The notes under the pieces were generated by a model that was not told the origin of the DNA, did no database searches, and was given only the letters and a program-made list of their open reading frames with translations. A program made the translations under genes and the position numbers. A stretch of DNA of 64,000 bases from Aquitalea aquatilis (GTDB lineage: Bacteria > Pseudomonadota > Gammaproteobacteria > Burkholderiales > Chromobacteriaceae): NCBI RefSeq assembly GCF_005155025.1, contig NZ_CP039731.1, forward strand, positions 2,852,001-2,916,000, in the 5' to 3' direction. The stretch's first letter is position 1; each line of letters opens with the position of its first letter. This document shows, piece by piece, positions 31,310 to 47,545 of the stretch.

Positions 31310-32848
31310 TCAGGCGGTCTTGTCCAGCGCATTCTCGATCTCACGGATATGCGCCTGGTGTTTCTGGATACGTTCACCGACCGGTGGCCCCTTGAATTGC
31401 TTGCGTACCCCCAGCACAAACCAGAAGAACAGCAAGACCACCAGCAGGGCGATGATCAGATAGAGCACCTTTTGATTGGGTGGCTGTACCCCGACAAACG
31501 CCAGGATGGCACCACCGATGGTGGCCAGCACGGCAATCGGCTTGGAGGCAGCGCCCAGGCTGAAGGGGCCTTTGTGGGTCCAGCTTTTGCCTTCAGCAAA
31601 CAGACCGGCCGTGGTGGGCAGGATGTAGGAAATGTACAGAAATACGGCGGAGCCAGCCGACAGCACAGTAAAGGCATCGCCATACAAGGTGGCGACAATG
31701 GCCAGGATGGCGCTGACCCAGATGGCCAGTCCCGGAGTGCGGTGTACGGCATGGACCTGTTTGAGCTGGTGCGAGAAGGGCAGGCCGCCATCACGGGCAA
31801 AGGCATACATCATGCGCGAGGTGGAGGTCAGGCAGGCCAGGCCGCACAGATAGTTGACCAGGAAGATGCCGATGCCCAATACCGCCTTCAGTACCGGCGG
31901 CAGGCTGCTGAGCAGCAGGTCGAAGAAGCCCATGCCAGCTTTGACGCCAGCCTGCATATTGGGCAGGACCAGCACGAAGGTGCAGATCAGGATGTAGCCG
32001 AACAGGGCAGACCACAGCACCGAGCGAATGATGCCCTTGGGCACATTGTGCGCGGCCTGGTGGGTTTCTTCCGAGGTATGCGCCGAGGCGTCGTAGCCGG
32101 TAAGGGTGTAGACGGTCAGCAACAGGCCGGACAGGAAGAGCATCAGGCTGCTGTCGGTCTTGGGCCAGGTGCCGCCGTCGGCACCGCTGAAGTTGGTAAA
32201 GGTGAACAGGCGCGAGAAATCGAGCGGACCCGGTGCATAAGCCAGCAGCGATACGGTCAGCAGCAGCGCGATGGCAAAGATCAGATAGCCGGACATGTCG
32301 GTCAGCCGGGTGGTGAGCTTGATGCCCAGATGATTCAGCCAGGCCTGGCTCAAGGTGATGCCTGCCAGAAACAGCGTTTGCTCTGTCCAGGTGAGCTGGT
32401 CAGGATTAATGCCCAGCAGTGGTGCAATCAGGGTTTTGAAGAAGGGATCGTAAACCCCGAAATTGACCGAAGCCACCACGAAGATCAGCCCCAGCAGGTT
32501 GATCCAGGCAGTTACCCAGCCCAATCCCTTGCCACCCAGAATGGACGACCAGTGATAGAGCCCGCCGGCAGTGGGGTAGGCCGAGGCGATCTGTGCCATG
32601 GCAGCGGCCACGATGCTGGCAAATAGCGCACCCACCGGCCAGCCTATGCCGATGGAGGCACCGCCGCCGGCACTGATGCCCGCCGGAAAGGCCGTGATGC
32701 CACCGGCCAGAATGCAGATGATGGAAAAGGAAATGGCGAAGTTGGAAAAGCCGCTCATGCGTCTGGATAGTTCCTGAGCGTAACCCATGCTGTGTAACAG
32801 TTTCTCGTCCTCACCCTGCGGTGCGGAGCCGTGCTGATCTCGGTTCAT
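31310..32848 (-). CDS. APC superfamily amine/amino acid permease
   Basis: 512 residues with about 12 membrane segments. The N-terminus (SRRMSGFSNFAISFSIICILAGG) and YPTAGGLYHWSSILGG are typical of the ACT (amino acid/choline/GABA) subgroup of the APC superfamily. It has AAGAGGAT as ribosome site. It lies 3' of the gamma-glutamylation genes of cluster 1, separated by 325 bases with a palindromic repeat, and is the likely importer of that pathway's substrate. Confidence 0.85.
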   Translation of the reverse strand: MNRDQHGSAPQGEDEKLLHSMGYAQELSRRMSGFSNFAISFSIICILAGGITAFPAGISAGGGASIGIGWPVGALFASIVAAAMAQIASAYPTAGGLYHWSSILGGKGLGWVTAWINLLGLIFVVASVNFGVYDPFFKTLIAPLLGINPDQLTWTEQTLFLAGITLSQAWLNHLGIKLTTRLTDMSGYLIFAIALLLTVSLLAYAPGPLDFSRLFTFTNFSGADGGTWPKTDSSLMLFLSGLLLTVYTLTGYDASAHTSEETHQAAHNVPKGIIRSVLWSALFGYILICTFVLVLPNMQAGVKAGMGFFDLLLSSLPPVLKAVLGIGIFLVNYLCGLACLTSTSRMMYAFARDGGLPFSHQLKQVHAVHRTPGLAIWVSAILAIVATLYGDAFTVLSAGSAVFLYISYILPTTAGLFAEGKSWTHKGPFSLGAASKPIAVLATIGGAILAFVGVQPPNQKVLYLIIALLVVLLFFWFVLGVRKQFKGPPVGERIQKHQAHIREIENALDKTA

Positions 32849-33098
32849 GATGATCCTCTTACATGTGTTGACCTACACTGTATGGAAATGCACTGTGCTG
32901 AGACTTCACCCTTTGCTGCGCCAGTAGCGGACGGCGGGCAAAAGCGCGGCCTGCGTCCGGCTTTGCCTGTCGGCTAGCCATACCCATTTGCCTTCTACCC
33001 GTGTCTGCTGCGTGGCGCTCTGCGTCCCGTTCGTGCCGGGAATACTCTGGAATGCTTGCCGTTCGTGCTGTCGGCTTTGGAACAGCTAACAAAACCCC

Positions 33099-33180
33099 TG
33101 CTGCTGCGTTGCGCCGCCTTGCCGTACTACTTGTACTGTCTGCAGCGGCGCGCCTTTCCCCAGGGCCGCTACGCTATTTT
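33099..33180. repeat. REP-like palindromic element in permease-GATase gap
   Basis: Imperfect nested inverted repeats: outer arms GCGCCGC (33111-33117) and GCGGCGC (33145-33151), inner arms GTAC (33124-33127) and GTAC (33133-33136). The element runs into the 3' end of the GATase gene, where TTTTGTCAGCCG supplies its last codons. It looks like an intergenic repeat of REP/BIME type, but only one copy is in this window. The rest of the 325-base gap (32849-33173) holds no credible gene. Confidence 0.35.
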
Positions 33181-33902
33181 GTCAGCCGCTCTGAGTGACT
33201 GCGTTTGCTGCTCATGCGGACCAACTCATCAAACAGCCCCTGCTGGCTGCTGTCTTCCCGTGCAGATAATTCCGGATGCCACTGCACGGCAATCAATTGC
33301 GGAAACCCTTCCACCTCGATGGCCTCGATCACGCCATCGGCTGCCCAGGCCACGGCGTGCACGCCCTGACCCGGCTGGTCGATGGCCTGGTGGTGCCAGG
33401 ACTTGGTGGCCACTTCGGTGCTGCCCAGCAGGCCTGCCAGGCAGGAGTCGGCAGCCACCCTGACCTGATGCAGGGTGGGGTCGCGCGGGGCTACCCGGTG
33501 TTCCACTGTTTCACCCACCACATCCGGCAAGTGCAGGTGCAGTGTCCCGCCCAGTACGGTATTGAGAATCTGCAGGCCACGGCAGATGGCCAGCGTCGGC
33601 AGTTTGCGTTGAAGCAGGGAGCGTGCCAGCGCGGTTTCGGTGTGGTCGCGCTCCGGGCTCAGGTTGTAGATGGTGGGGTGGGTGCCACGGTCGAACAGCT
33701 CCGGGTCGATGTCGCCGCCACCAATCAGCACCACGCCGTCCAGCGCATCCAGCCAGCTGTCGATGGCAGCATCCCCCACTGGCGGCAGCAGCACCGGCGC
33801 ACCGCCGGCACGCAAGACGGCATGCACGTAGTCCACCGGAGTGTGATAGCCATACCCCTGGCCAGCGGGGTAGGTGGTCAGGCCGATGAGGGGGGGCTTC
33901 AT
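33174..33902 (-). CDS. Class I amidotransferase, gamma-glutamyl hydrolase (PuuD-like)
   Basis: 242 residues of the peptidase C26 group. Catalytic Cys107 in AICRGLQILN and His/Glu in AVQWHPE are present, along with GVVLIGGGDIDPELF. In the Puu pathway this enzyme splits the gamma-glutamyl bond of gamma-Glu-GABA, freeing glutamate. It overlaps the start of the alcohol dehydrogenase gene by 4 bases. As the last catabolic gene of cluster 1 it would release the oxidised amine product. Its C-terminus is encoded by a repeat-like sequence. Confidence 0.85.
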   Translation of the reverse strand: MKPPLIGLTTYPAGQGYGYHTPVDYVHAVLRAGGAPVLLPPVGDAAIDSWLDALDGVVLIGGGDIDPELFDRGTHPTIYNLSPERDHTETALARSLLQRKLPTLAICRGLQILNTVLGGTLHLHLPDVVGETVEHRVAPRDPTLHQVRVAADSCLAGLLGSTEVATKSWHHQAIDQPGQGVHAVAWAADGVIEAIEVEGFPQLIAVQWHPELSAREDSSQQGLFDELVRMSSKRSHSERLTK

Positions 33903-35062
33903 GGCAGTTGGCCTTGCACGGCTGCCAGATAGATGGCGCTGTAGTCGCTGGCGCTCAGCGGCAGCGGATTGCCGCCGTCGCTGGGGTCGGCCTTGGCCAT
34001 GCGGCCGATCTCACTGGCCTGCTCTGCCGGGATGTTGATCTGGCCCAGGCTGTGCGGAATGCCCAGATCGCTGCGCAGCTGCAGTATCCAGGCGAGGAAA
34101 CCATCAAAACTGCTGTCGGCCAAGCCGATATAGCGGGCAGCGGCGGCCAGCTTGTCGGCGATGGCCGGACGATTGCGTACCAGCACATAGGGCAGCAGGA
34201 TGGCATTGGCCAGGCCGTGGTGGGTGTCGAACACCGCACCAATGGGATGCGCCAGTGCATGCACGCCGCCCAGGCCTTTCTGGAAGGCGGTTGCGCCCAT
34301 GATGGAGGCCGCCAGCATATGTGAGCGGGCCTCGATATGGCTGCCATCGGCATAAGCGGTGGGCAGCCAGTCGTGCACCAGTTTCATGCCTTCCAGCGCC
34401 ACGCCCTGCGCCAGCGGGTGGTAGTAGGGCGAGCAATAGGCTTCCAGATTGTGCACCAGCGCGTCGATGCCGGTGGCGGCAGTCAGGTGCGGGGGCAGGC
34501 CGGCGGTGAGTTCCGGGTCGGCCAGCACCAGTCTGGGCAGCATGGAAGGGTGGAAGATGATGACCTTGCGGTGGTCTTCTTCATCGATGATCAGTGAGGC
34601 GCGGCCCACTTCCGAACCGGTGCCGGAGGTGGTCGGCACGGCGATGGTGGGGGCCACGCCGGCCACATTCACCCGCAGCCAGTTGTCGCCGACGTCTTCA
34701 AAATCCCACAGCGGGCGGTCCTGGCCCACCATCAGCGCAATGGCCTTGCCCACATCCAGTGCGCTGCCGCCGCCTACCGCAATCACGCCATCGTGCTTGC
34801 CCACCTTGTAGGCATTGACGCCGGCGTAGACATCGCGGCCCACCGGGTTGGGGCGCATATCGCTGAACAGCTGTGCTTCCATGCCGGCTGAGGCCAGATA
34901 GTCGAGCAATCTGGCCACCAGCGGTAGCCGGGCGAGGCCGGGGTCGGTGACCAGTAGCGGGCGGCGCATGCCCAGTTGCTGGCACAGTGCGGGCAGCTCG
35001 CTGGCGCGGCCTGCGCCAAAGCGGATGCTGGTCGGATAGTTCCAGTTACCTTGCAGTTGCAT
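33899..35062 (-). CDS. Iron-containing alcohol dehydrogenase
   Basis: 387 residues of the group III (Fe-ADH) family. Nucleotide-binding VIAVGGGSALDVGKAIAL, VPTTSGTGSEVGRASLI, and metal ligands Asp/His in ATGIDALVHNLEAY and His residues in GGVHALAHPIGAVFDTHHGLANA are all visible. It interconverts an alcohol and aldehyde with NAD(P). It lies between the aldehyde dehydrogenase and GATase genes with 3- and 4-base spacings, so it is an integral step of cluster 1. The standard putrescine pathway has an amine oxidase here instead. Confidence 0.9.
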   Translation of the reverse strand: MQLQGNWNYPTSIRFGAGRASELPALCQQLGMRRPLLVTDPGLARLPLVARLLDYLASAGMEAQLFSDMRPNPVGRDVYAGVNAYKVGKHDGVIAVGGGSALDVGKAIALMVGQDRPLWDFEDVGDNWLRVNVAGVAPTIAVPTTSGTGSEVGRASLIIDEEDHRKVIIFHPSMLPRLVLADPELTAGLPPHLTAATGIDALVHNLEAYCSPYYHPLAQGVALEGMKLVHDWLPTAYADGSHIEARSHMLAASIMGATAFQKGLGGVHALAHPIGAVFDTHHGLANAILLPYVLVRNRPAIADKLAAAARYIGLADSSFDGFLAWILQLRSDLGIPHSLGQINIPAEQASEIGRMAKADPSDGGNPLPLSASDYSAIYLAAVQGQLP

Positions 35063-35065
35063 GCT

Positions 35066-36451
35066 TTACCCCTTTAGATGGAAGGATTTGATACGGGTGA
35101 GCTGCTGATAACCCAGCACGGATAGCGAAATGCCGCGGCCGGTGTCCTTGACCCCGGTCCAGGCGAGGGCAGGGTCCAGGTAGTCGCAGCGGTTCATGAA
35201 CACGGTGCCGGTGGCAATGTCATTCCCCAGCCGGATGGCGGCCTCGCGGTCCTGCGTCCACAGCGAGGCGGTCAGGCCATAGGCGCTGTCATTCATCAGG
35301 GCCACGGCCTGCTCATCGGAATCCACCGGCATGATGCCGATGACCGGGCCAAAGCTCTCGTCCCGCATCACGCTCATGCCGTGATGCACATCCACCAGCA
35401 CCTGCGGGGCCAGATAGGCAGTGCCCGGCGCATCGGCGGCAAAGTGAGCGGCCGGAATCAGCGCCCGCGCCCCGGCGGCCACGGCATCGGCAATCTGGCT
35501 GCGCACAAAGCCGGCGGCGCTGGCGCGTACCATGGGGCCGAGATTGGTATTGGTATCCAGCGGATTGCCAAAGCGGTAAGCCCTGGTCAGTTCGACAAAT
35601 CCATCGACAAAGTCCTGATAGTGGCTGCGATGTACGTAGATGCGTTCGATGCCGCAGCAGGATTGCCCGGAGTTGAAAAATGCACCGTCCACCAGGTTTT
35701 CAATGGCGCTGGCCAGGTCGGCATCTTCACGCACATAAGCCGGGTCCTTGCCGCCCAGTTCCAGTCCCACGCCGATAAAGCGCTCACTGGCGGCTTGTTG
35801 TACCGCACGGCCACCGGCCACCGAGCCGGTAAAGGCGACAAAGTCGATCTGCGGCGCGGCCACCAGTCGCAGAGTGGCGACATGGTCCAGCTGCAGGCTC
35901 TGGAATACCCCGGCAGGCAGACCGGCTGCATCAAAGGCCTGCTGGAACAGTTCGGTCACCAGCGGGGTTTGCGAGGAGTGCTTGAGGATGACGGTATTGC
36001 CGGCAGCCAGCGCCGGCACGATGGTGTTGATGGCGGTGAGGAAGGGGTAGTTCCACGGTGCCAGCACCAGTACCGTGCCCAGTGGTTCGTGGCGCAGAAA
36101 GCGCTGAAAGCCTTCCTTGGCAGTGGGATGGATGTCGGCCAGCCCTTCCTCGGCAATGGCCAGCATGTGGCGCGCCCGTTCCTCGAGGCCGCGCACTTCG
36201 CCGGGCGACTGACTGATGGGGCGGCCAATCTGGCGGGTAATGGCTTCGGCACAGGCGTCCTTGTGCGCCACCAGCCAGTCTACCGCTTTGCCGATCAATG
36301 CCTTGCGTTCGGCCAGCGGGGTGTGTCGCCAGCCACGCTGTGCGGCGCTGGCCGCATCGAGAACCGCCTGGGTCTGGCTGGCGCTGGCATAGGGGCGCTC
36401 CAGCAGGACGGCACCATCGACGGGGGAGATGACGGAATAGGATGTGCTCAT
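35066..36451 (-). CDS. NAD(P)-dependent aldehyde dehydrogenase (cluster 1)
   Basis: 461 residues. Conserved APWNYPFLTAINTIVPALAAGN, ELGGKDPAYV (general base Glu) and the catalytic Cys in FFNSGQSCCGIERI are intact. The length and motifs suit the semialdehyde dehydrogenase group (YneI/Sad-like). It begins where the ligase gene ends, with the two directly abutting. In the proposed scheme it oxidises the gamma-glutamyl-amino-aldehyde to an acid. It differs clearly from PuuC in cluster 2 (495 residues). Confidence 0.88.
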   Translation of the reverse strand: MSTSYSVISPVDGAVLLERPYASASQTQAVLDAASAAQRGWRHTPLAERKALIGKAVDWLVAHKDACAEAITRQIGRPISQSPGEVRGLEERARHMLAIAEEGLADIHPTAKEGFQRFLRHEPLGTVLVLAPWNYPFLTAINTIVPALAAGNTVILKHSSQTPLVTELFQQAFDAAGLPAGVFQSLQLDHVATLRLVAAPQIDFVAFTGSVAGGRAVQQAASERFIGVGLELGGKDPAYVREDADLASAIENLVDGAFFNSGQSCCGIERIYVHRSHYQDFVDGFVELTRAYRFGNPLDTNTNLGPMVRASAAGFVRSQIADAVAAGARALIPAAHFAADAPGTAYLAPQVLVDVHHGMSVMRDESFGPVIGIMPVDSDEQAVALMNDSAYGLTASLWTQDREAAIRLGNDIATGTVFMNRCDYLDPALAWTGVKDTGRGISLSVLGYQQLTRIKSFHLKG

Positions 36452-37819
36452 TTAGATGATCTCGAAGTAGCGTTTCAATTCCCAGTCGGTGACATGGCGC
36501 TGGAACTCGCGTTCTTCCCACTCGCGGGTGGCCGCAAAGTGGTCGACAAAATCATCACCGAACCAGTCGCGGGCGGCGGCGGAAGCGCGCAGGGCCTGGG
36601 CAGCATCCCACAGGGTGCGGTGCAGCTGCAGATGGGCCGGGGCTTCCAGCAGATAGCCATTGGCCGTTACCGGCTCCTCCGGCTCAATCTTGTTTTCTAT
36701 GCCGTACAGCCCGGCGGCCAGCCCGCTGGCCAGTGCCAGATAGGGGTTGGTATCGGCACCCGGCAGGCGGTATTCCACCCGTTGCGACTTGCTGCTGCCC
36801 GGAATGGCGCGAATGGCCACGGTACGGTTGTCCACCCCCCACAGGGCGCTGGTAGGGGCCCAGTAGCCTGGTACCAGTCGGCGGAAACTGTTGACGGTGG
36901 GGGCGGCCATGCTCATGAATTGCGGCATCAGTTTTTGAATGCCGCCAATGAAATGGCGCATGGTGTCGCTGATATTGTGTTCGTGGCCGGCCTGATGGAA
37001 GGCGCTGTGGCCGTCGCGGTTCTTCAGCGAGATATGGATGTGCCCGCCCTGGCCGGAGTAGTCCTGATGCCACTTGGCCATATAGCAGATCATGCGGCCC
37101 TGTTTTTCCGCCAGCACCTTGGAAAAGGTCTTGAAGCAGACCGCGTTGTCGGCAGCGATCATGGCCTTGTCCACCGTCAGTGCGGCTTCCAGTGCGCCGG
37201 GGCCGGTTTCTTCGTGAAAGCCTTCTACCGGCATGTTCATCTGCTCGCACAGATCAAGCAGGCCACGGTAGAAGTCGGTATTCACCGAGTTGCGCAATAC
37301 CGAGTAACCAAAAGCACCGCTGCCCAGCGGCTTGGGGTTCTGGTACAGCTTGTCTTGCAGCGCGGCATTGCTTTCGTCGGTGACCAGGAATTCGTATTCG
37401 AAGCCGGCCATCGGCTCGAAGCCCATGGCGCGGGCGCGCTCCACCACCCGGCGCAGCACGCCGCGCGGGCACAGCCCTTCCAGCCGGCCGACTACCTCGC
37501 CCTGCACGAAGATCATATTGTCCTCGAGCGGCAGCTCGCGACAGGATTCGGGAAGCAGCCGGATCTGCGCATCGCCATAGCCACGGCCCCAGCCGGTCAG
37601 CAGGGTGTTGTCGTACAGCTTGTCGCCCACGTCCCAGCCGAATACCACGTCACAGAAACCGAAGCCGCCCTCCAGCGAGGACAGGAATTTGTCGCGCGAC
37701 ATGTATTTGCCGCACATCACGCCATCAATATCAACCAGGCCAACCTTGATCTGCCGTAGCTGGCGTTCTTCGATCAGGGTCTTCAAATCTGCCATTGTCT
37801 TTACATGCCGAGCATCCAT
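36452..37819 (-). CDS. Glutamine-synthetase-like gamma-glutamyl-amine ligase (cluster 1)
   Basis: 455 residues from the ATG at 37819, preceded by AAGGAG; the open frame extends to 38149 without support. Core GS motifs are present: GFEYEFLVTDE and HEETGPGALE metal sites, GQGGHIHISL, NSFRRLVPGYWAP and WGVDNRTVAIR. It belongs to the PuuA/GlnA3/GlnA4-type group that ligates glutamate to an amine at the cost of ATP rather than making glutamine. It is the first gene of cluster 1 and would commit the substrate amine. The exact amine is unknown. Confidence 0.88.
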   Translation of the reverse strand: MDARHVKTMADLKTLIEERQLRQIKVGLVDIDGVMCGKYMSRDKFLSSLEGGFGFCDVVFGWDVGDKLYDNTLLTGWGRGYGDAQIRLLPESCRELPLEDNMIFVQGEVVGRLEGLCPRGVLRRVVERARAMGFEPMAGFEYEFLVTDESNAALQDKLYQNPKPLGSGAFGYSVLRNSVNTDFYRGLLDLCEQMNMPVEGFHEETGPGALEAALTVDKAMIAADNAVCFKTFSKVLAEKQGRMICYMAKWHQDYSGQGGHIHISLKNRDGHSAFHQAGHEHNISDTMRHFIGGIQKLMPQFMSMAAPTVNSFRRLVPGYWAPTSALWGVDNRTVAIRAIPGSSKSQRVEYRLPGADTNPYLALASGLAAGLYGIENKIEPEEPVTANGYLLEAPAHLQLHRTLWDAAQALRASAAARDWFGDDFVDHFAATREWEEREFQRHVTDWELKRYFEII

Positions 37820-37879
37820 GATTGCTCCTTGCGCTGGTGTTGGGTGGGTGGCAGGGTTATTTCTTTTCCTGTTGCGGCT

Positions 37880-37909
37880 AGTATTGTTCGTTAGAAAATC
37901 TGCAATCAA
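37880..37909 (-). promoter_or_regulatory. Candidate promoter of cluster 1
   Basis: On the minus strand TTGATT, 18-base spacer, AATACT, about 60 bases before the ligase start. Confidence 0.45.
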
Positions 37910-37917
37910 GATAAAAA

Positions 37918-37933
37918 TGTAATAAAAATTAGA
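37918..37933. promoter_or_regulatory. Candidate RpiR-type operator
   Basis: TGTAAT-AAAA-ATTAGA: an inverted repeat with one mismatch, close to the HexR-type palindrome (TGTART.. ..AYTACA) of RpiR-family regulators but with a 4-base spacer. It lies just upstream of the cluster 1 -35 and in the gap divergent to the RpiR gene. Confidence 0.4.
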
Positions 37934-38078
37934 TTGTGCTGTGCAATGTGGAAGCAATGCCACAATGCCGGTTTGCCACCGCAGACTGCTATCATTGCCG
38001 AATGAATGCCGGCTGCGCCTTGTTGCCGGCCATTGATAACAGGCACTTGTCAGCCAGTGCCTGATTGTGGAGAAGCCT

Positions 38079-38951
38079 GTGAGTAATAGCCGGTCCATCG
38101 CGGAAGAACTGCGCGTGCTGTTTGAAACCCTGACCCCGACCGAGCGCAAGGTCGGGCGGGTGCTGCTGGCGAATTACCCGGTGGCCGGGCTGGAAACCAT
38201 CGCCCAACTGGCGCTGCGGGCAGATGTCAGCGGCCCGACCGTGTTGCGCCTGATCAGCAAGCTGGGCTTCGACAGCTACACGGCCTTTCAGACTGCCTTG
38301 CGCGACGAACTGGAAATCCGCTTGCAGTCGCCGCTGGTGCGCCACGACCCGGCCCAGCTGCAGGGTGATAGCGATTTTCTGGTCAGCTATGCGGCGCGCA
38401 TCACCCAGCTGATGCAGGAGACGGTGGCCCATCTGCCGCGGGTGGAGTTTGATGGCGTGGTGGATGTGCTGGGCGAGCGCAAGAACCGCATCTGGCTGCT
38501 GGGCGGCCGGCTGACTGACCCGTTGGCGGCTTATCTGTGTCACCACCTGAAAGTGGTGCGGGCCGACGTGGTGCATCTGCGCGGTGTGCCATCCAGCTGG
38601 GCCGACTCGCTGGTCGACATGGGCAAGCACGATGTGCTGGTGATCTTCGACATCCGCCGTTATTGGGATGGTGCCTTGCACATTGCCGAGATGGCGGCGC
38701 AGCGCAAGGTCAGTGTCTTGCTGTTTACCGATCAGTGGCTGTCGCCGGTATCGCGTGTGGCGCGCTTTACCCTGGCCGCACATACTGCCGGCCCGTCCGG
38801 CTGGGATACCAATACCCCGCTGATGCTGCTGGTGGATGCCGTCATCGCTGCGCTCAATACCCGGCAATGGGCGGCCATCAGCGACCGCCTGCAGGAAGTG
38901 GAAGCCATGCGCGCCCGGCTGGGCGAGGGCAGCCGCCGGGCTGACGAGTGA
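38079..38951 (+). CDS. RpiR/MurR family transcriptional regulator
   Basis: 290 residues from a GTG at 38079 with GGAG six bases upstream (a GTG at 38067 is possible). An N-terminal RpiR helix-turn-helix domain (LTPTERKVGRVLLANYPVAGLETIAQLALRADVSGPTVLRLISKLGF-type, about residues 15-75) precedes a SIS domain (about 120-260, RIWLLGGRLTDPLA) that normally binds a phosphosugar or related ligand. It is divergent from cluster 1 by 259 bases and is probably its regulator. RpiR control of a gamma-glutamylation operon is unusual. Confidence 0.85.
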   Translation: MSNSRSIAEELRVLFETLTPTERKVGRVLLANYPVAGLETIAQLALRADVSGPTVLRLISKLGFDSYTAFQTALRDELEIRLQSPLVRHDPAQLQGDSDFLVSYAARITQLMQETVAHLPRVEFDGVVDVLGERKNRIWLLGGRLTDPLAAYLCHHLKVVRADVVHLRGVPSSWADSLVDMGKHDVLVIFDIRRYWDGALHIAEMAAQRKVSVLLFTDQWLSPVSRVARFTLAAHTAGPSGWDTNTPLMLLVDAVIAALNTRQWAAISDRLQEVEAMRARLGEGSRRADE

Positions 38952-41301: not shown

Positions 41302-42789
41302 TTACAGCTTGATCAGCGTGCTCTTCAGCTCGCTGTACTTTTCCAGTGCGTGCAGCGATTTGTCGCGACCATTGCCAGACTGCTTGAAGCCGCCGAAGGG
41401 GAAGTTCATGTCGCCGCCTTCGTCGTAGCAGTTTACCCATACGGTGCCGGCGCGTAGGCGGCGTGATACCTGATGGGCGGTGCTGACATTGGAGGTCCAC
41501 ACCGCAGCGGCCAGGCCGTATTCGGTATCGTTGGCGATGCTGACGGCTTCGTCCAGTGTGTCGAAGGTGATGACCGACAGCACCGGCCCAAAGATTTCCT
41601 CGCGGCAGGTGGTCATGTCCGGGCGCTGGCAATCAAAGGCGGTCGGTTCGATGAACAGGCCCTTGTCAGTGTGGGCAGCCTTGCCGCCGCAGATCAGGCC
41701 GGCGCCTTCGCTCAGTCCCTTGTCGACATAGGACAGCACCTTGTCGTACTGGATCTTGTCAACGATGGCACCCATGCTGGTGGCCGGGTCCAGCGGATCG
41801 CCTGGGAACCAGCCCTGGGCGGCCTTCTTGAACTCGGCCAGGAAGGCCTCTTTCACGCTGCGTTGTACCAGCACGCGCGAGCCGGCCGTGCACATTTCGC
41901 CCATATTGAAGAAAATGGCGCCGGCAGCGGTACGGGCGGCCTTGGCAATGTCCGGGCAGTCTTCCAGCACGATATTGGGCGACTTGCCACCCAGCTCCAG
42001 CCAGACGCGCTTGAGGTTGGATTGCGCGGCATAGCCGGCAATCAGCTTGCCCACGCCGGTGGAGCCGGTAAAAGCTAGGCAGTCCACATCCATGTGCAGG
42101 GCCAGCGCCTTGCCGACGTCACCCGCGCCGGGCAGTACCTGGAAAATACCGTCCGGGATGCCGGCATCCTTGGCCAGTTGTGCCAGGCGAATGGCGGTCA
42201 GCGGGGATTTTTCCGACGGCTTGACGATGACGGCATTGCCGGCCGCCAGGGCAGGGCCGAATTTCCAGCTCGCCATCAGGATGGGGAAGTTCCACGGCAC
42301 CACGGCCGCCACCACGCCAATGGCTTCACGGGTGATCAGGCCCACCAGCTTGGGGTCGACCGGAGCCACTTCGCCACCGATCTTGTCGATGGCCTCGGCA
42401 AACCATTCCACACAGTAAGCCGCGCCCGGCACATCCACCGTGGTGGAGTCGCCAATCGGCTTGCCCATGTCCAGCGTTTCCAGCAGGGCCAACTCGTCGC
42501 CATGCTGGCGGATCAGCGCGGCAAAGCGTTTCAGAATGCTGCCGCGAGCCAGCGGGGCCAGCTCCGACCACTTGCCGGAATCAAAGGCGGCGCGTGCAGC
42601 GGTCACGGCTGCGTTCACTTCAGCCTCGCCGCAGCAGGCGATGTCGGCCAGTTTCTGACCATTGGCCGGATTGACGCAATCGAAGGTCTTGCCATCGGCG
42701 GCGCTGGTATAAGCACCGTTGATGAAGGCCCGGCCTTCGATATTGAGTTGTGCAGCAAGCTGTTTCCACTCTGCATGGGTACGCGCCAT
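41302..42789 (-). CDS. puuC: Gamma-glutamyl-gamma-aminobutyraldehyde dehydrogenase
   Basis: 495 residues from ATG 42789 (MARTHAEWKQLAAQL), the same length as E. coli PuuC. Conserved VPWNFPILMASWKFGPALAAGN, ELGGKSPNIVLEDC and catalytic Cys in NMGEMCTAGSRV. It oxidises gamma-glutamyl-aminobutyraldehyde (and other amino-aldehydes) to gamma-Glu-GABA. puuR lies 60 bases upstream on the same strand and puuD-puuA diverge, the enterobacterial puu layout in reordered form. Confidence 0.88.
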   Translation of the reverse strand: MARTHAEWKQLAAQLNIEGRAFINGAYTSAADGKTFDCVNPANGQKLADIACCGEAEVNAAVTAARAAFDSGKWSELAPLARGSILKRFAALIRQHGDELALLETLDMGKPIGDSTTVDVPGAAYCVEWFAEAIDKIGGEVAPVDPKLVGLITREAIGVVAAVVPWNFPILMASWKFGPALAAGNAVIVKPSEKSPLTAIRLAQLAKDAGIPDGIFQVLPGAGDVGKALALHMDVDCLAFTGSTGVGKLIAGYAAQSNLKRVWLELGGKSPNIVLEDCPDIAKAARTAAGAIFFNMGEMCTAGSRVLVQRSVKEAFLAEFKKAAQGWFPGDPLDPATSMGAIVDKIQYDKVLSYVDKGLSEGAGLICGGKAAHTDKGLFIEPTAFDCQRPDMTTCREEIFGPVLSVITFDTLDEAVSIANDTEYGLAAAVWTSNVSTAHQVSRRLRAGTVWVNCYDEGGDMNFPFGGFKQSGNGRDKSLHALEKYSELKSTLIKL

Positions 42790-42849
42790 GGGTCTTCTCC
42801 TGATATTTATGTAAGTTGATTCCGGTTGCTCGTTGCTGGCTACCGTCAA

Positions 42850-43395
42850 TCAGAATGTGGGCGGCGAGCTGGCACTGACCATTTCACAGATTTCGCTGCC
42901 GATGTTGCGAAAGCGATGCGGCAGCTTGCTGTCGAAATAGTAAGAGTCGCCCGGACCCAGAATGCGGGTTTCGTTGTTGACCGTGATTTCAATCGAACCG
43001 GCAATGATGACGCCACCCTCCTGGCCCTCATGCATCAGCATGTCGGGGCCAGTGTCGGCGCCCGGTTCGTAGTGCTCTTTCAGAATGGCGATATCACGCC
43101 GTTCATGTGCGGTGCCGATCAGCAGCAGCCTGATTTGATCATTGCCCAGATTGGGAAGTTCTTTTGCCTGATAGAACACGCGCGGCTGTTGCGGCTCTAC
43201 ATCAAAAGTGAAAAATTCCGCCAGGGTCATCGGCAGACCTTCCAGTACCTTCTTCAAGGAGCTGATCGACGGGCTGACGCGATTCTGCTCGATCAGGGAG
43301 ATCGTGCCGTTGGTGACGCCTGCCCGCTTGGCAAGTTCGCGTTGTGACAGACCAAACCGGTCTCTGACCACTCTCAATCGTGCTCCTACATCCAT
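42850..43395 (-). CDS. puuR: PuuR-type repressor, XRE helix-turn-helix plus cupin
   Basis: 181 residues (E. coli PuuR 185). N-terminal HTH_3 domain (RLRVVRDRFGLSQRELAKRAG, NGTISLIEQNRVSPSISSL) and C-terminal cupin (MLMHEGQEGGVIIAGSIEITVN, GPGDSYYFDSKLPHRFRN). In E. coli it represses puu genes and is released by putrescine. It probably controls its own operon with puuC and the divergent puuD-puuA-aminotransferase genes. Confidence 0.88.
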   Translation of the reverse strand: MDVGARLRVVRDRFGLSQRELAKRAGVTNGTISLIEQNRVSPSISSLKKVLEGLPMTLAEFFTFDVEPQQPRVFYQAKELPNLGNDQIRLLLIGTAHERRDIAILKEHYEPGADTGPDMLMHEGQEGGVIIAGSIEITVNNETRILGPGDSYYFDSKLPHRFRNIGSEICEMVSASSPPTF

Positions 43396-43805
43396 CTGGC
43401 TGCTTCCATCTATGTTAATAATTTTAGACGTTCCATCATATGATTTTTGATCGTATCCTGCATCTGTTGTTGCGCTGCAAAATCAAATTTCTTTGCATGT
43501 TTTGGAGTTTATAGCCAGAATCAGCCTCAGGAATCAAGGGTGTTGTGGATTTTTTTAAACATCTGCAACAGTATATTTGATCAAACCTTGGTTTGTGCGA
43601 TGATAGCGTTCATGCTGTCCGTCATGGTTTGCTGGACGGCATGAAGGGTACTTTCTTCTGTTCAGTTTCTTGTGGCCGGCCTTGCCGGACTTGAGTCACA
43701 CTGGACCGGCGCGGTACCGGACTGCACCAGGCAGTGGTGTGCAGTCGCTGGCAACCTGTCGGAAACCGCGTGTGCGGTTTCTCCAATCGAGTCAACGAGG
43801 TCCTT
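43396..43805. other. Regulatory gap between puuR and puuD
   Basis: 410 bases with no credible gene. It holds perfect palindromes ATCATATGAT (43435-43444) and TTTGATCAAA (43576-43585), with TTTGATC also at 43446-43452. An inverted repeat CAAACC-TT-GGTTTG lies at 43582-43595. Two stem-loops lie nearer puuD: a 10-base stem at 43611-43643 and GAAACCGC-GTGT-GCGGTTTC at 43762-43781. The palindromes are candidate PuuR operators and the stem-loops suggest a structured leader; both points are inference. Confidence 0.45.
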
Positions 43806-44561
43806 ATGCAGCAACCGATTATCGGCATTCCGTGTGATGTGAAAATGGTAAGTGGTCTGCCATTTCATGCGGTTGGCGAGAAATACATTGCAGCTGCCGC
43901 AGGCGGCGTAGGTGGTATCCCGGTGCTGATTCCTTCATTGGGCAGCGCGGCACCGCTGCGTGAATATCTCAATTTTGTGGATGGCGTGCTGCTGCCCGGC
44001 TCGCTGTCCAATATCGAGCCTCATCGTTATGGCGGCCAGGCCAGCCGCCAGGGAACACTTCATGATCCGGCGCGTGATGCAACCACGCTGCCGCTCATCG
44101 ACCTTCTTCTGCAAGAAGGCATCCCGCTTCTGGGTATTTGCCGCGGTTTCCAGGAAATCAATGTTGCACTGGGCGGTGAACTCTTCCAGCACGTACAGGA
44201 AGAACAAGGCTTTGGCGATCACCGCGAGCCGGATACTCAGAATCTGGATGAGATGTATGGTCTGGCACATGCCCTGCACCTGCAACCGGACAGCCTGCTC
44301 AAAGGCTGGCTGGGGCAGGATGAAGTCAGGGTGAACTCGCTGCACCAGCAAGGTATCAAACGTCTGGCCGACCGCCTGGTGGCGGAAGGCGTGGCGGATG
44401 ACGGGCTGGTGGAAGCATACCGGGTCAGGGATGCCAAGGGCTTTGCCTACGGCGCGCAGTGGCATCCTGAGTGGAAGTACTGGGAAAACCCGGTGTCCAT
44501 GGCCATTTTCAATGCGTTCGGTGACGCTTGCCGCGCGCGTCGTGCCAGCCGTCAGGGCTGA
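43806..44561 (+). CDS. puuD: Gamma-glutamyl-GABA hydrolase
   Basis: 251 residues from ATG 43806 (MQQPIIGIPCDVKM), preceded by ACGAGG. Class I amidotransferase fold with catalytic Cys112 in GICRGFQEIN and His/Glu in GAQWHPEW. E. coli PuuD has 254 residues and the same layout. It splits gamma-Glu-GABA into glutamate and GABA. It begins the divergent operon puuD-puuA-aminotransferase. Confidence 0.88.
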   Translation: MQQPIIGIPCDVKMVSGLPFHAVGEKYIAAAAGGVGGIPVLIPSLGSAAPLREYLNFVDGVLLPGSLSNIEPHRYGGQASRQGTLHDPARDATTLPLIDLLLQEGIPLLGICRGFQEINVALGGELFQHVQEEQGFGDHREPDTQNLDEMYGLAHALHLQPDSLLKGWLGQDEVRVNSLHQQGIKRLADRLVAEGVADDGLVEAYRVRDAKGFAYGAQWHPEWKYWENPVSMAIFNAFGDACRARRASRQG

Positions 44562-44614
44562 GTCGCACGTCATCCAGAGCCGGTACACCGGCCACAATGG
44601 AAGTAGAGGAAAAC

Positions 44615-45946
44615 ATGAACCAAATCAATGATTGGCTGCGAGAACATCGCATTACGGAAGTCGAGTGCATCGTACCGGACATGACCGGCGTGGCACGCGG
44701 CAAGATCGTCCCCAAGGACAAATTCGTCTCCGACCCGGAAATGCGTCTTCCGGAAGCGGTACTGATCCAGACTGTCACCGGCGATTACCCGGACGACAGC
44801 ATGCTGGACCTGACTGACCCGGACATGGTGCTGACGCCCGATCCGAACTCGCTGCGCTTCGTGCCCTGGGCAGCGGACCCCACCGCCCAGCTGATCTACG
44901 ACTGCTACCGCGCCGATGGCTCGCTGGTGGATGTGGCACCGCGTAGCGTGCTCAAGCGCGTACTGGGCCTGTTTGACGAACTGGGCTTCGAACCGGTACT
45001 GGCTCCGGAAATGGAGTTCTACCTGATGTCGCCGAACCCGGATCCGGATATCCCGCTGACTGCGCCTATCGGCCGTACCGGTCGCGCCGAATTCGGTCGC
45101 CGCTCCTACTCCATCGATGCGGTCAACGAATTCGACCCGCTGTTCGAAGACATCTACGACTACTGCCATGCGCAGAATCTGGAAGTGGACACGCTGATTC
45201 ACGAAATCGGCACCGCGCAGATGGAAATCAACTTCCTGCACGGCAATCCGCTGGATCTGGCCGACCAGGTCTTCCTGTTCAAGCGCACCGTGCGCGAGGC
45301 GGCGTTCCGTCACAATATGTACGCCACTTTCATGGCCAAGCCGATGGAAAACGAACCGGGCTCGGCCATGCACATGCACCAGAGCCTGATCGACAAGAAC
45401 ACCGGCAAGAACGTGTTCACCAATGAAGACGGCAGCCCGTCCGACATCTTCTTCCACTTCATTGGCGGCATGCAGCATTACATTCCGGAAGTGATGCCGT
45501 TCTTTGCGCCGTACGTGAACTCCTTCCGTCGTCTCAGCCCGTATACCGCTGCGCCGACCAATGTGGAGTGGGGCTACGACAACCGTACCGTCGGCCTGCG
45601 CGTGCCGCATTCTTCCCCGGCCGCCCGCCGCGTGGAAAACCGCGTACCGGGTGTGGACGTGAACCCCTACATCGCCATGGCCGCCACCCTGGCCTGCGGC
45701 TACCTGGGTATCGTCAACAAGATCAAGCCGCGCGAACCGATGTCCACCGACGCCTATGAGCTGCCTTTCCAGTTCCCGCATGGTGCGGAAGAGTCGCTCA
45801 AGCGCCTGGCTGCCTGCCCGGATATTCCGGAAGTCATGGGCCCGCATTTCGTGAAGATGTATCTGGGTATGAAGGAGAAGGAATTCTCCGAATACTTCCG
45901 CGTCATCAGCCCGTGGGAACGCAAATTCCTGCTGCTGCACGTATAA
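44615..45946 (+). CDS. puuA: Gamma-glutamylputrescine synthetase
   Basis: 443 residues from ATG 44615 with AGAGGA upstream. GS-fold motifs: APEMEFYLMSPNPDP, EIGTAQMEINFLHG, SAMHMHQSL, NSFRRLSPYTAAP and WGYDNRTVGLRVP. Its N-terminal region (VECIVPDMTGVARGKIVPK) is the PuuA/PauA type. It ligates glutamate to putrescine or another polyamine using ATP. It is 53 bases after puuD. It is only moderately similar to the cluster 1 ligase, so the two likely prefer different amines. Confidence 0.88.
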   Translation: MNQINDWLREHRITEVECIVPDMTGVARGKIVPKDKFVSDPEMRLPEAVLIQTVTGDYPDDSMLDLTDPDMVLTPDPNSLRFVPWAADPTAQLIYDCYRADGSLVDVAPRSVLKRVLGLFDELGFEPVLAPEMEFYLMSPNPDPDIPLTAPIGRTGRAEFGRRSYSIDAVNEFDPLFEDIYDYCHAQNLEVDTLIHEIGTAQMEINFLHGNPLDLADQVFLFKRTVREAAFRHNMYATFMAKPMENEPGSAMHMHQSLIDKNTGKNVFTNEDGSPSDIFFHFIGGMQHYIPEVMPFFAPYVNSFRRLSPYTAAPTNVEWGYDNRTVGLRVPHSSPAARRVENRVPGVDVNPYIAMAATLACGYLGIVNKIKPREPMSTDAYELPFQFPHGAEESLKRLAACPDIPEVMGPHFVKMYLGMKEKEFSEYFRVISPWERKFLLLHV

Positions 45947-46047
45947 CAACGCTTTCAGGTGAGACCGGCCGGTCTTGAAGGATCGGCCGCAGGTGCCCGG
46001 CATGCCGGGTGTCTGGATAGTGGCAGTCGCAGCAGGCATCTTGATCG

Positions 46048-46071
46048 CAAGGCCCGTCAGGGCCTTGTTTT
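46048..46071 (+). terminator. Terminator-like hairpin after puuA
   Basis: CAAGGCCC-GTCA-GGGCCTTG followed by TTTTG. A second hairpin GGCTGGCC-GATTCC-GGCCAGCC lies at about 46093-46114. Together they may give reduced read-through into the aminotransferase gene. Confidence 0.6.
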
Positions 46072-46165
46072 GAAACATCAATGTTGCAGCCTGAGGCTGG
46101 CCGATTCCGGCCAGCCCAACAATAAGCCCCACAGGGGCTGGAGAGATAGTAGAGAGGAAGCTTTT

Positions 46166-47545
46166 ATGCAGAACCAACGTACTACGACCGAATGGCGCGA
46201 ACTGGATGCAGCACACCATCTGCACCCGTTTACTGATACCAACTCGCTGAACGAGCAGGGTGCGCGTGTCATCACCAAGGCCGATGGCATTTATCTGTAC
46301 GACTCCGAAGGGAACAAGATTCTCGACGGGATGGCCGGCCTGTGGTGTGTCAATATCGGTTATGGCCGCAAGGATCTGCCGGAAGTGGCGAAGCGCCAGA
46401 TGGAACAGCTGGCCTACTACAATACCTTCTTCAAGACCACGCATCCGGCCGTGGTGGAATTGTCCCACCTGCTGGCTGAAGTGGCTCCCGAAGGTTTCAA
46501 GCACGTTTTCTACACCAACTCCGGCTCCGAATCCGTCGACACCATGATCCGCATGGTGCGCCGCTATTGGGATGTAAAAGGCAAGAAGGACAAGAAAACC
46601 CTGATCGGCCGCTGGAACGGCTATCACGGTTCCACCATCGGTGGTGCCAGCCTGGGTGGCATGACTTACATGCACGAGCAGGGCGACCTGCCGATTCCGG
46701 GCATCGTCCATGTTGAACAGCCGTGGTGGTACAAGCATGGCAAGGACATGACGCCGGAAGAGTTTGGCCTGGCTGCCGCCAAGTGGGTGGAAGACAAGAT
46801 TCTGGAAGTAGGTGCCGACAAGGTGGCTGCTTTTGTGGGTGAGCCGATTCAAGGTGCGGGTGGCGTGATTGTGCCGCCATCGACCTACTGGCCGGAAATT
46901 CAGCGCATTTGCCAGAAGTACGACATCCTGCTGGTGGCCGATGAAGTCATCTGCGGCTTTGGTCGTACCGGCGAGTGGTTTGGTCAGCAGGTATTCGGTT
47001 TTACCCCGGATATCTTCACCACCGCCAAGGGCCTGTCGTCCGGTTATCAGCCGATTGGCGCGGTATTCGTCAACGAAAAGGTGGCCACCACCCTGGCCGA
47101 AGGCGGTGACTTCAATCACGGCTTTACCTACTCCGGCCACCCGGTAGCGGCTGCCGTGGCACACGCCAACGTCAAGGCACTGCGTGACGAAGGCATTGTT
47201 GATCGCGTTAAGAACGACACCGGTCCCTATATGCAAAAGCGCTGGCGCGAAGTGTTTGGCCAGTTCGAGCATGTGGACGATGTCCGTGGCGTGGGCCTGA
47301 TTCAGGCCTTCACCCTGGTGAAGAACAAGGCCACGCGCGAACTGTTCCCCAACTTTGGTGAAATCGGCACCCTGTGCCGCGATATCTTCTTCAAGCACAA
47401 CCTGATCATGCGTGCCTGCGGCGACCACATCGTGTCCGCGCCGCCGCTGGTGATCAGCAAGGAAGAAATCGACCAGATGCTGGATACCGCCGCCAAGTGC
47501 ATGGTGGAGTTTGAAAAGCAGCTGAAAGAACGCGGTCTGGCTTGA
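46166..47545 (+). CDS. Class III aminotransferase, putrescine/polyamine type (SpuC-like)
   Basis: 459 residues from ATG 46166 with GAGGAAG upstream. PLP features: YTNSGSESVDTMIRMVRRYW, NGYHGSTIGGASLGGM, VADEVICGFGRTGEWFG and Lys288 in TTAKGLSSGYQPIGA. Motifs and length resemble SpuC-type putrescine:pyruvate and related omega-amine transaminases. It could convert putrescine to aminobutyraldehyde, or act on GABA. It is separated from puuA by 219 bases with hairpins. Confidence 0.85.
   Translation: MQNQRTTTEWRELDAAHHLHPFTDTNSLNEQGARVITKADGIYLYDSEGNKILDGMAGLWCVNIGYGRKDLPEVAKRQMEQLAYYNTFFKTTHPAVVELSHLLAEVAPEGFKHVFYTNSGSESVDTMIRMVRRYWDVKGKKDKKTLIGRWNGYHGSTIGGASLGGMTYMHEQGDLPIPGIVHVEQPWWYKHGKDMTPEEFGLAAAKWVEDKILEVGADKVAAFVGEPIQGAGGVIVPPSTYWPEIQRICQKYDILLVADEVICGFGRTGEWFGQQVFGFTPDIFTTAKGLSSGYQPIGAVFVNEKVATTLAEGGDFNHGFTYSGHPVAAAVAHANVKALRDEGIVDRVKNDTGPYMQKRWREVFGQFEHVDDVRGVGLIQAFTLVKNKATRELFPNFGEIGTLCRDIFFKHNLIMRACGDHIVSAPPLVISKEEIDQMLDTAAKCMVEFEKQLKERGLA

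Follow-up and report, generated by a model that had tools for sequence, protein, structure and literature searches.

A conserved operon in Aquitalea aquatilis with a probable role in ethanolamine utilisation by gamma-glutamylation

Gene content and conservation of the operon

A putative operon for the utilisation of ethanolamine lies on the minus strand of a 64,000-nucleotide stretch of the Aquitalea aquatilis genome (contig NZ_CP039731.1, positions 2,852,001 to 2,916,000), hereafter called the window; the source genome consists of 4.36 Mb in one contig. Its first gene encodes a glutamine synthetase (GS)-like gamma-glutamyl ligase, proposed here to act on ethanolamine (36452..37819; 455 aa; PF00120, Gln-synt_C, E 1e-99). 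This is followed by an aldehyde dehydrogenase (ALDH; 35066..36451; 461 aa; PF00171, Aldedh, E 1e-126) as the proposed gamma-glutamyl-aminoacetaldehyde dehydrogenase, and by an iron-type alcohol dehydrogenase (Fe-ADH; 33899..35062; 387 aa; PF00465 and PF25137 as N and C domains) as the proposed gamma-glutamyl-ethanolamide dehydrogenase. A PuuD-type class I amidase (33174..33902; 242 aa; PF07722, Peptidase_C26/GATase, E 2e-55) is the proposed gamma-glutamylglycine hydrolase, and an APC-family permease (31310..32848; 512 aa; PF13520, AA_permease_2) may take up ethanolamine. On the plus strand, a divergent gene (38067..38951; 294 aa) encodes an RpiR-type regulator with PF01418 (HTH_6) and PF01380 (SIS), its start lying 247 bp from that of the ligase gene. 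These are the six genes, places and families given by a first-pass annotation made from the sequence alone, and Pfam confirmed the families.

That annotation had also described the operon as tight. The description is accurate for four of the genes, as the ligase stop at 36452 abuts the ALDH start at 36451, the ALDH and Fe-ADH genes are 3 bp apart, and the Fe-ADH and amidase genes overlap by 4 bp. It does not extend to the permease gene, which lies 325 bp behind the amidase gene (gap 32849-33173); its co-transcription with the other four is putative. Among Aquitalea strains, the same gap differs in length and content (246-370 bp including margins).

The ALDH carries catalytic-type residues in its motifs (Asn134, Glu231, and Cys265), the Fe-ADH contains GGGSA, GTGSEV, and HALAH, and the amidase contains ICRG, SWHHQ, and HPE, all of which we take to have their usual catalytic meaning. 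In an NCBIfam scan, none of the operon proteins reached a curated cut-off (for the ALDH, among the best 25 of 45 families); the amidase obtained 94 bits against PuuD, for which the cut-off is 266.

The operon is real, and the order GS-ALDH-FeADH is conserved more than expected by chance. A search of 61 related genomes returned ligase matches of 46-100% identity, with a gap below them, as other GS-like genes reached no more than 38%; the Aquitalea aquatica ligase is 98% identical to that of the window. A scan of named genomes confirmed at least 551 relatives, the best 80 of which (the 80 loci) span Proteobacteria, Desulfobacterota, a Leptospiraceae bacterium, and an Eremiobacterota. Gene order was counted in the 56 loci whose sequence continues for 4 kb or more on the downstream side of the ligase. 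There, the ligase gene is followed on the same strand by Fe-ADH in 49 loci, by ALDH in 46, and by both in 45, so that conservation of the gene order, which the first-pass annotation had set as a check, is borne out. Fe-ADH was not detected in the remaining seven (L061, L065, L066, L079, L087, L092, and L116). As a control, four other GS-type genes of the genome were examined with about 8 kb on each side, and an Fe-ADH of this kind was found beside none of them. GS, ALDH, Fe-ADH, and GMP-synthase-like genes also stand in a row in Legionella lytica, which was opened as a ligase match.

Within the family of the window, 16 of 37 genomes hold a ligase orthologue (one of the 16 is 61% complete). The window-type permease lies downstream in 11 of these genomes, an Eat-type permease in two, and neither type in one, and two of the 16 loci are cut by contig ends. 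One of the two genomes with Eat (G020) carries the operon twice, once with Eat (L147) and once with none of the searched transporter types (L146); no EutB was found in this genome. A divergent RpiR gene is present in 15 of the 16 other operon loci of the family.

Relation to described gamma-glutamylation pathways

A route of this kind is already in print for ethanolamine. The available excerpts of Westermann et al. 2023 (PMC10132767) describe a Phaeobacter operon encoding a gamma-glutamylglycine amidohydrolase, a TRAP transporter, an ethanolamine gamma-glutamylase, an aldehyde dehydrogenase, and a gamma-glutamylethanolamide dehydrogenase, with an adjacent RpiR gene. According to the same excerpts, five products of the operon are up on phosphorylethanolamine (Table 2), the binding protein EtoX binds ethanolamine with a Kd of 7.9 uM, and closely related genes are functional in Chromohalobacter salexigens and Agrobacterium tumefaciens (citing Vetting et al. 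2015). In the excerpted text of Krysenko et al. 2019 (PMC6529630), GlnA4 of Streptomyces is identified as a gamma-glutamylethanolamide synthetase, after which a dehydrogenase, an aldehyde dehydrogenase, and a hydrolase are proposed to lead to glycine and glutamate.

Because these two papers describe the ethanolamine route, so that it is in print for Chromohalobacter, Agrobacterium, Phaeobacter, and Streptomyces, the pathway is not undescribed, contrary to what the first-pass annotation had supposed. The four-step chemistry proposed there (glutamylation, oxidation of the alcohol to the aldehyde and of the aldehyde to the acid, and hydrolysis) is probably right. The further claim that a full alcohol dehydrogenase operon under RpiR control was not known is not supported in view of the Phaeobacter operon as excerpted (PMC10132767), whose adjacent RpiR gene is a candidate regulator. 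The last dehydrogenase of that operon is probably iron-type, as it is in annotated records that share its layout (Ruegeria B32, P. denitrificans, and others).

The operons of Phaeobacter sp. MED193 and C. salexigens share with the window the GS-like ligase, ALDH, gamma-glutamylethanolamide dehydrogenase, hydrolase, and adjacent RpiR gene. However, they differ in ligase clade (judged from the sequences of same-layout records), in the hydrolase family (PF05013 there, C26/PuuD-type in the window), and in transport (TRAP there, an APC permease in the window). Plasmid operons of S. meliloti and R. leguminosarum (L162 and L163), which we connect by inference with the A. tumefaciens case, resemble the window in the divergent RpiR gene, APC permease, ALDH, and Fe-ADH, but differ in ligase clade, hydrolase family, and gene order (hydrolase-permease-ligase-ALDH-ADH). 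Compared by description, as excerpted from PMC6529630, the GlnA4 cluster of Streptomyces coelicolor likewise combines ethanolamine gamma-glutamyl ligation with a dehydrogenase, an ALDH, and an amidohydrolase, and some Streptomyces species have a permease unlike Eat and EutH; the S. coelicolor dehydrogenase is short-chain rather than Fe-ADH, and the regulator is EpuRI. The Puu putrescine pathway draws its ligase, ALDH, and C26 hydrolase from the same broad families as the window, but has an amine oxidase where the window has an alcohol dehydrogenase, and the window ligase and hydrolase score below the Puu cut-offs. As to the B12-dependent Eut pathway, EutB and EutC are not in the operon.

Operons of the published layout, termed type A, were collected with the Fe-ADH as query, which gave matches in 33 plasmid records (E 1e-90 or better). 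Of the 13 whose surroundings were inspected, 11 hold GS, ALDH, and Fe-ADH together; the remaining two are a Mesorhizobium record without an annotated GS and a Shinella record that is arranged differently. An annotated RpiR gene adjoins seven of the 11 type-A operons, a TRAP transporter occurs in six, and an APC permease in two. The window ALDH is 55% identical, and its Fe-ADH 52-55% identical, to the counterparts in the Ruegeria B32, S. meliloti, and P. denitrificans operons. The RpiR protein is 36-42% identical in three alphaproteobacterial operons. An N-formylglutamate amidohydrolase is annotated in ten of the 11 type-A operons (PF05013 was confirmed in one) and was not seen in that of Paracoccus albus. 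Among the 80 loci, the window-type ligase is followed by a GMP-synthase-like amidotransferase in 20 and by a PuuD-type amidase like that of the window in six (five Chromobacteriaceae and one Desulfobacterales). From this comparison of type-A and window-type operons, one dehydrogenase pair is combined with ligases of two clades and hydrolases of three types.

In a quick GS tree, which contains several long branches, each of the two ligase types forms a clade of its own (type A, 11 rows, SH-aLRT 100; window type, 100 rows, SH-aLRT 92). The Ruegeria ligase matched PDB entry 5dm3, which we take to be Csal_0679, at 801 bits and the window ligase matched it at 221 bits. Csal0679 is one of five GS genes according to an excerpt of PMC5299690. 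In a quick tree of Fe-ADH proteins, 12 of the 13 plasmid-record rows (11 from published-type operons and one from a locus where no GS is annotated) fall inside a 27-row, mostly alphaproteobacterial set with SH-aLRT 98; the 13th (L172) is a long branch. This suggests displacement of the ligase, although the tree is unrooted and a root on the stem of the plasmid rows would remove the conflict.

The pathway itself is thus known, and the combination of ligase clade, amidase, and permease appears modestly new; this variant was not found in print in the open-licence literature searched. If read correctly, it extends the B12-independent ethanolamine route to many Proteobacteria and several members of other phyla. 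It also suggests that the pair of ALDH and Fe-ADH is constant, while the ligase, hydrolase, transporter, and regulator around it have been exchanged. The pathway may escape notice, because the inspected records annotate the operon genes as glutamine synthetase and generic dehydrogenases.

Substrate of the pathway and rival readings

We assign a probability of roughly 80% to the reading that the operon serves the utilisation of ethanolamine by gamma-glutamylation. The APC permease would import ethanolamine, and the GS-like ligase would couple it to the glutamate side chain at the expense of ATP, yielding gamma-glutamyl-ethanolamide. The Fe-ADH would oxidise this to gamma-glutamyl-aminoacetaldehyde and the ALDH would convert the aldehyde to gamma-glutamylglycine, from which the C26 amidase would release glycine and regenerate glutamate. 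We favour ethanolamine because of the conserved GS-ALDH-FeADH order, the linkage of related operons to Eat and TRAP transporters, the occurrence of the permease type before eutBC in Deinococcus, the glycine-using neighbours of some type-A operons, and the induction by phosphorylethanolamine of the Phaeobacter operon of published layout, as excerpted.

Eat-like permeases are found in 12 of the 80 loci. Seven of them exceed the TIGR00908 ethanolamine-permease cut-off (L042, L066, L076, L086, L092, L098, and L112), and five fall just short, with 352-371 bits against 381.75 (L054, L070, L095, L109, and L110). Nine of the 80 loci encode closely related TRAP binding proteins (71-100% identical to the Vibrio query), and three a different TRAP protein. 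The two of these nine that were searched match PDB entry 4uab at E 2e-154 and 2e-168, and a TRAP protein from Ruegeria does so at E 1e-191; 4UAB is Csal_0678 with ethanolamine bound, according to an excerpt of PMC12410723. A permease like that of the window is present in seven loci, three of them close relatives of the window. Mapped onto the ligase tree, the transporter type changes at least 10 times among 38 labelled rows, so transporters seem to have been exchanged around a constant core. In three relatives (L042, L147, and L148), whose ligases are 74-79% identical to that of the window, Eat occupies the place of the APC permease.

In one Deinococcus (sp. KNUC1210), a 62% identical counterpart of the window permease is encoded immediately ahead of eutB and eutC. 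Ten plasmid records carry this permease type at E 1e-60 or better, and the surroundings of five were inspected. Permeases of 48-51% identity lie inside the S. meliloti and R. leguminosarum operons, and in two more Sinorhizobium records permease and Fe-ADH lie within 6 kb of each other by coordinates.

Glycine-using genes adjoin two of the 11 inspected type-A operons. That of Salipiger lies between folD, purU and glyA, serine ammonia-lyase, and that of Aminobacter is followed by bhcABCD, the genes of the beta-hydroxyaspartate cycle, which uses glycine and glyoxylate. These neighbours point to glycine as the product, and hence to a two-carbon amino alcohol as the substrate. Of the substrates named by the first-pass annotation, ethanolamine therefore holds as a candidate, whereas 3-aminopropanol is disfavoured. 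In Aminobacter aminovorans the operon beside bhcRABCD (L168) is carried on pAA03, a plasmid typed as conjugative.

Several observations weigh against ethanolamine. The window ligase is 30-34% identical to the type-A ligases of Ruegeria B32, S. meliloti, and P. denitrificans, and 51 of the 80 loci have none of the searched transporter types, partly as contigs end. Copies of the permease in Caballeronia and B. arboris (62-63% identical; two of four burkholderial records) stand beside neither GS nor eut genes. Seven queries for glycine-using neighbours of window-type loci returned only a sarcosine-oxidase-like gene in three Sneathiella loci. Moreover, the same genome encodes EutC, EutB, an Eat permease (628 bits), and a divergent EutR-like AraC regulator (199 bits, below the cut-off of 319) at 2637590-2642593 of the contig (L135; 2.6376-2.6426 Mb), about 240 kb from the operon. 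Such a EutBC-Eat system could take ethanolamine and leave the same four steps to another primary amino alcohol, such as 3-aminopropanol, alaninol, serinol, or 4-aminobutanol. The best reason for keeping a different amino alcohol open is that EutB occurs in nine of the 11 family genomes with an APC operon versus neither of the two with an Eat operon, a skew that gives a hint of a different substrate from few independent genomes. The permease also lies outside the Eat family, with 26-35% identity to two Eat proteins in local alignments. However, the same permease type is found beside eutBC in Deinococcus and inside the S. meliloti and R. leguminosarum operons, two genomes with an APC operon (G009 and G023) lack both EutB and Eat, the ligases beside Eat and APC permeases are close relatives, and the type-A operons with glycine-using neighbours also speak for ethanolamine. 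We therefore consider another amino alcohol unlikely. A narrower version, if anything slightly less likely, is that in EutBC-bearing Aquitalea and relatives the operon retained its ethanolamine-type dehydrogenase pair but switched to another amino alcohol, such as 3-aminopropanol, alaninol, or serinol; if this were true, one genome would run two separate amino-alcohol routes.

A Puu-like polyamine pathway, with the Fe-ADH as an incidental member, would fit the Puu-like gene cluster 2.4-8.6 kb further on, the Pot-type polyamine ABC transporter genes after a related operon in Marinovum, and a 49% identical ligase, found with an aminotransferase and a spermidine/putrescine ABC transporter, that shares all but one of the compared site residues. 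We judge it very improbable, as neither an amine oxidase (PuuB) nor an aminotransferase is among the genes of the operon by Pfam, the Fe-ADH is the conserved partner of the ligase, and the ligase is far under the NCBIfam cut-off for PuuA (186 bits against 650), a strict model that the neighbouring Puu-like GS also misses (187 bits). Least credible is an accessory glutamine synthetase. The Gln-synt_C domain speaks for it, as does the fact that the best NCBIfam score of the ligase is to GlnA. This score is 222 bits, below the cut-off of 429, and the cut-off for GS III was likewise not reached; the genome also has a separate, better-scoring GS (468 bits to PF00120). Aligned with the GlnA of its own genome, the ligase keeps the metal and glutamate residues (Glu141, Glu143, Glu204, Glu211, His260, Arg314, Arg332, Glu349, and Arg351), but GlnA Glu327 (flap) is replaced by Trp320 and Ser53 by Leu73. 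Residue roles and numbering presumably follow E. coli GlnA, in agreement with a constant offset of 13 in the genome's own GlnA. Judged by these features, the protein looks GS-like without being an ammonia ligase.

Site residues of the ligase were dropped as a sign of ethanolamine and do not settle the substrate, because the polyamine-linked ligase has all but one of them. Related ligases (49-61% identical) in L117 (Rhodobacteraceae M382), L118 (R. leguminosarum Vaf10), and L119 (B. vietnamiensis G4) occur with other partners, namely a class III aminotransferase and polyamine ABC transporter, a GMC oxidoreductase, or no oxidase seen.

Under the ethanolamine reading, the question is why two apparent ethanolamine routes are kept in Aquitalea. 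Across the family, no link was found between the operon and the absence of EutB, which is present in nine of 16 genomes with a ligase orthologue and 11 of 21 without (hand count). The B12 dependence of the Eut route as a simple reason for a second one is weakened by a CbiC match in the genome.

Intergenic regulatory region and neighbouring genes

The RpiR-type regulator may act at a promoter between the divergent genes. When 18 intergenic regions of the family were aligned (several are near-copies or represent a single genome listed twice under different names), at least 85% of rows retained a footprint that reads TAA..TTT.TTACA, followed by CTTG and then by T.TAA.....A.TAC. The footprint is common to Eat- and APC-type operons. 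It contains a candidate RpiR operator, TAATTTTTATTAC, which is matched without mismatch at 37919..37931 on the minus strand, upstream of the promoter-like hexamers TTGATT and AATACT that the footprint surrounds. These hexamers, 18 bp apart and read by eye, occupy 37880..37909 on the minus strand, and a second conserved element, TCTAACGAACAATACT, lies over the -10 side. An automatic promoter scan at a stricter threshold made no call at TTGATT/AATACT. The operator motif occurs in the window once without mismatch and once elsewhere with two mismatches; no RpiR operator was found in the gap before the permease gene. Enrichment of the motif was also considered and rejected, as its loose form has three matches in the whole genome against 14 for the reversed control.

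The Puu-like cluster lies at positions 41302-47545 of the window. Its ALDH scores 640 bits against PuuC, for which the cut-off is 850, and the cluster further encodes an XRE-cupin-like regulator (recognised by eye), a GATase, a GS-like ligase, and a class III aminotransferase-like protein.

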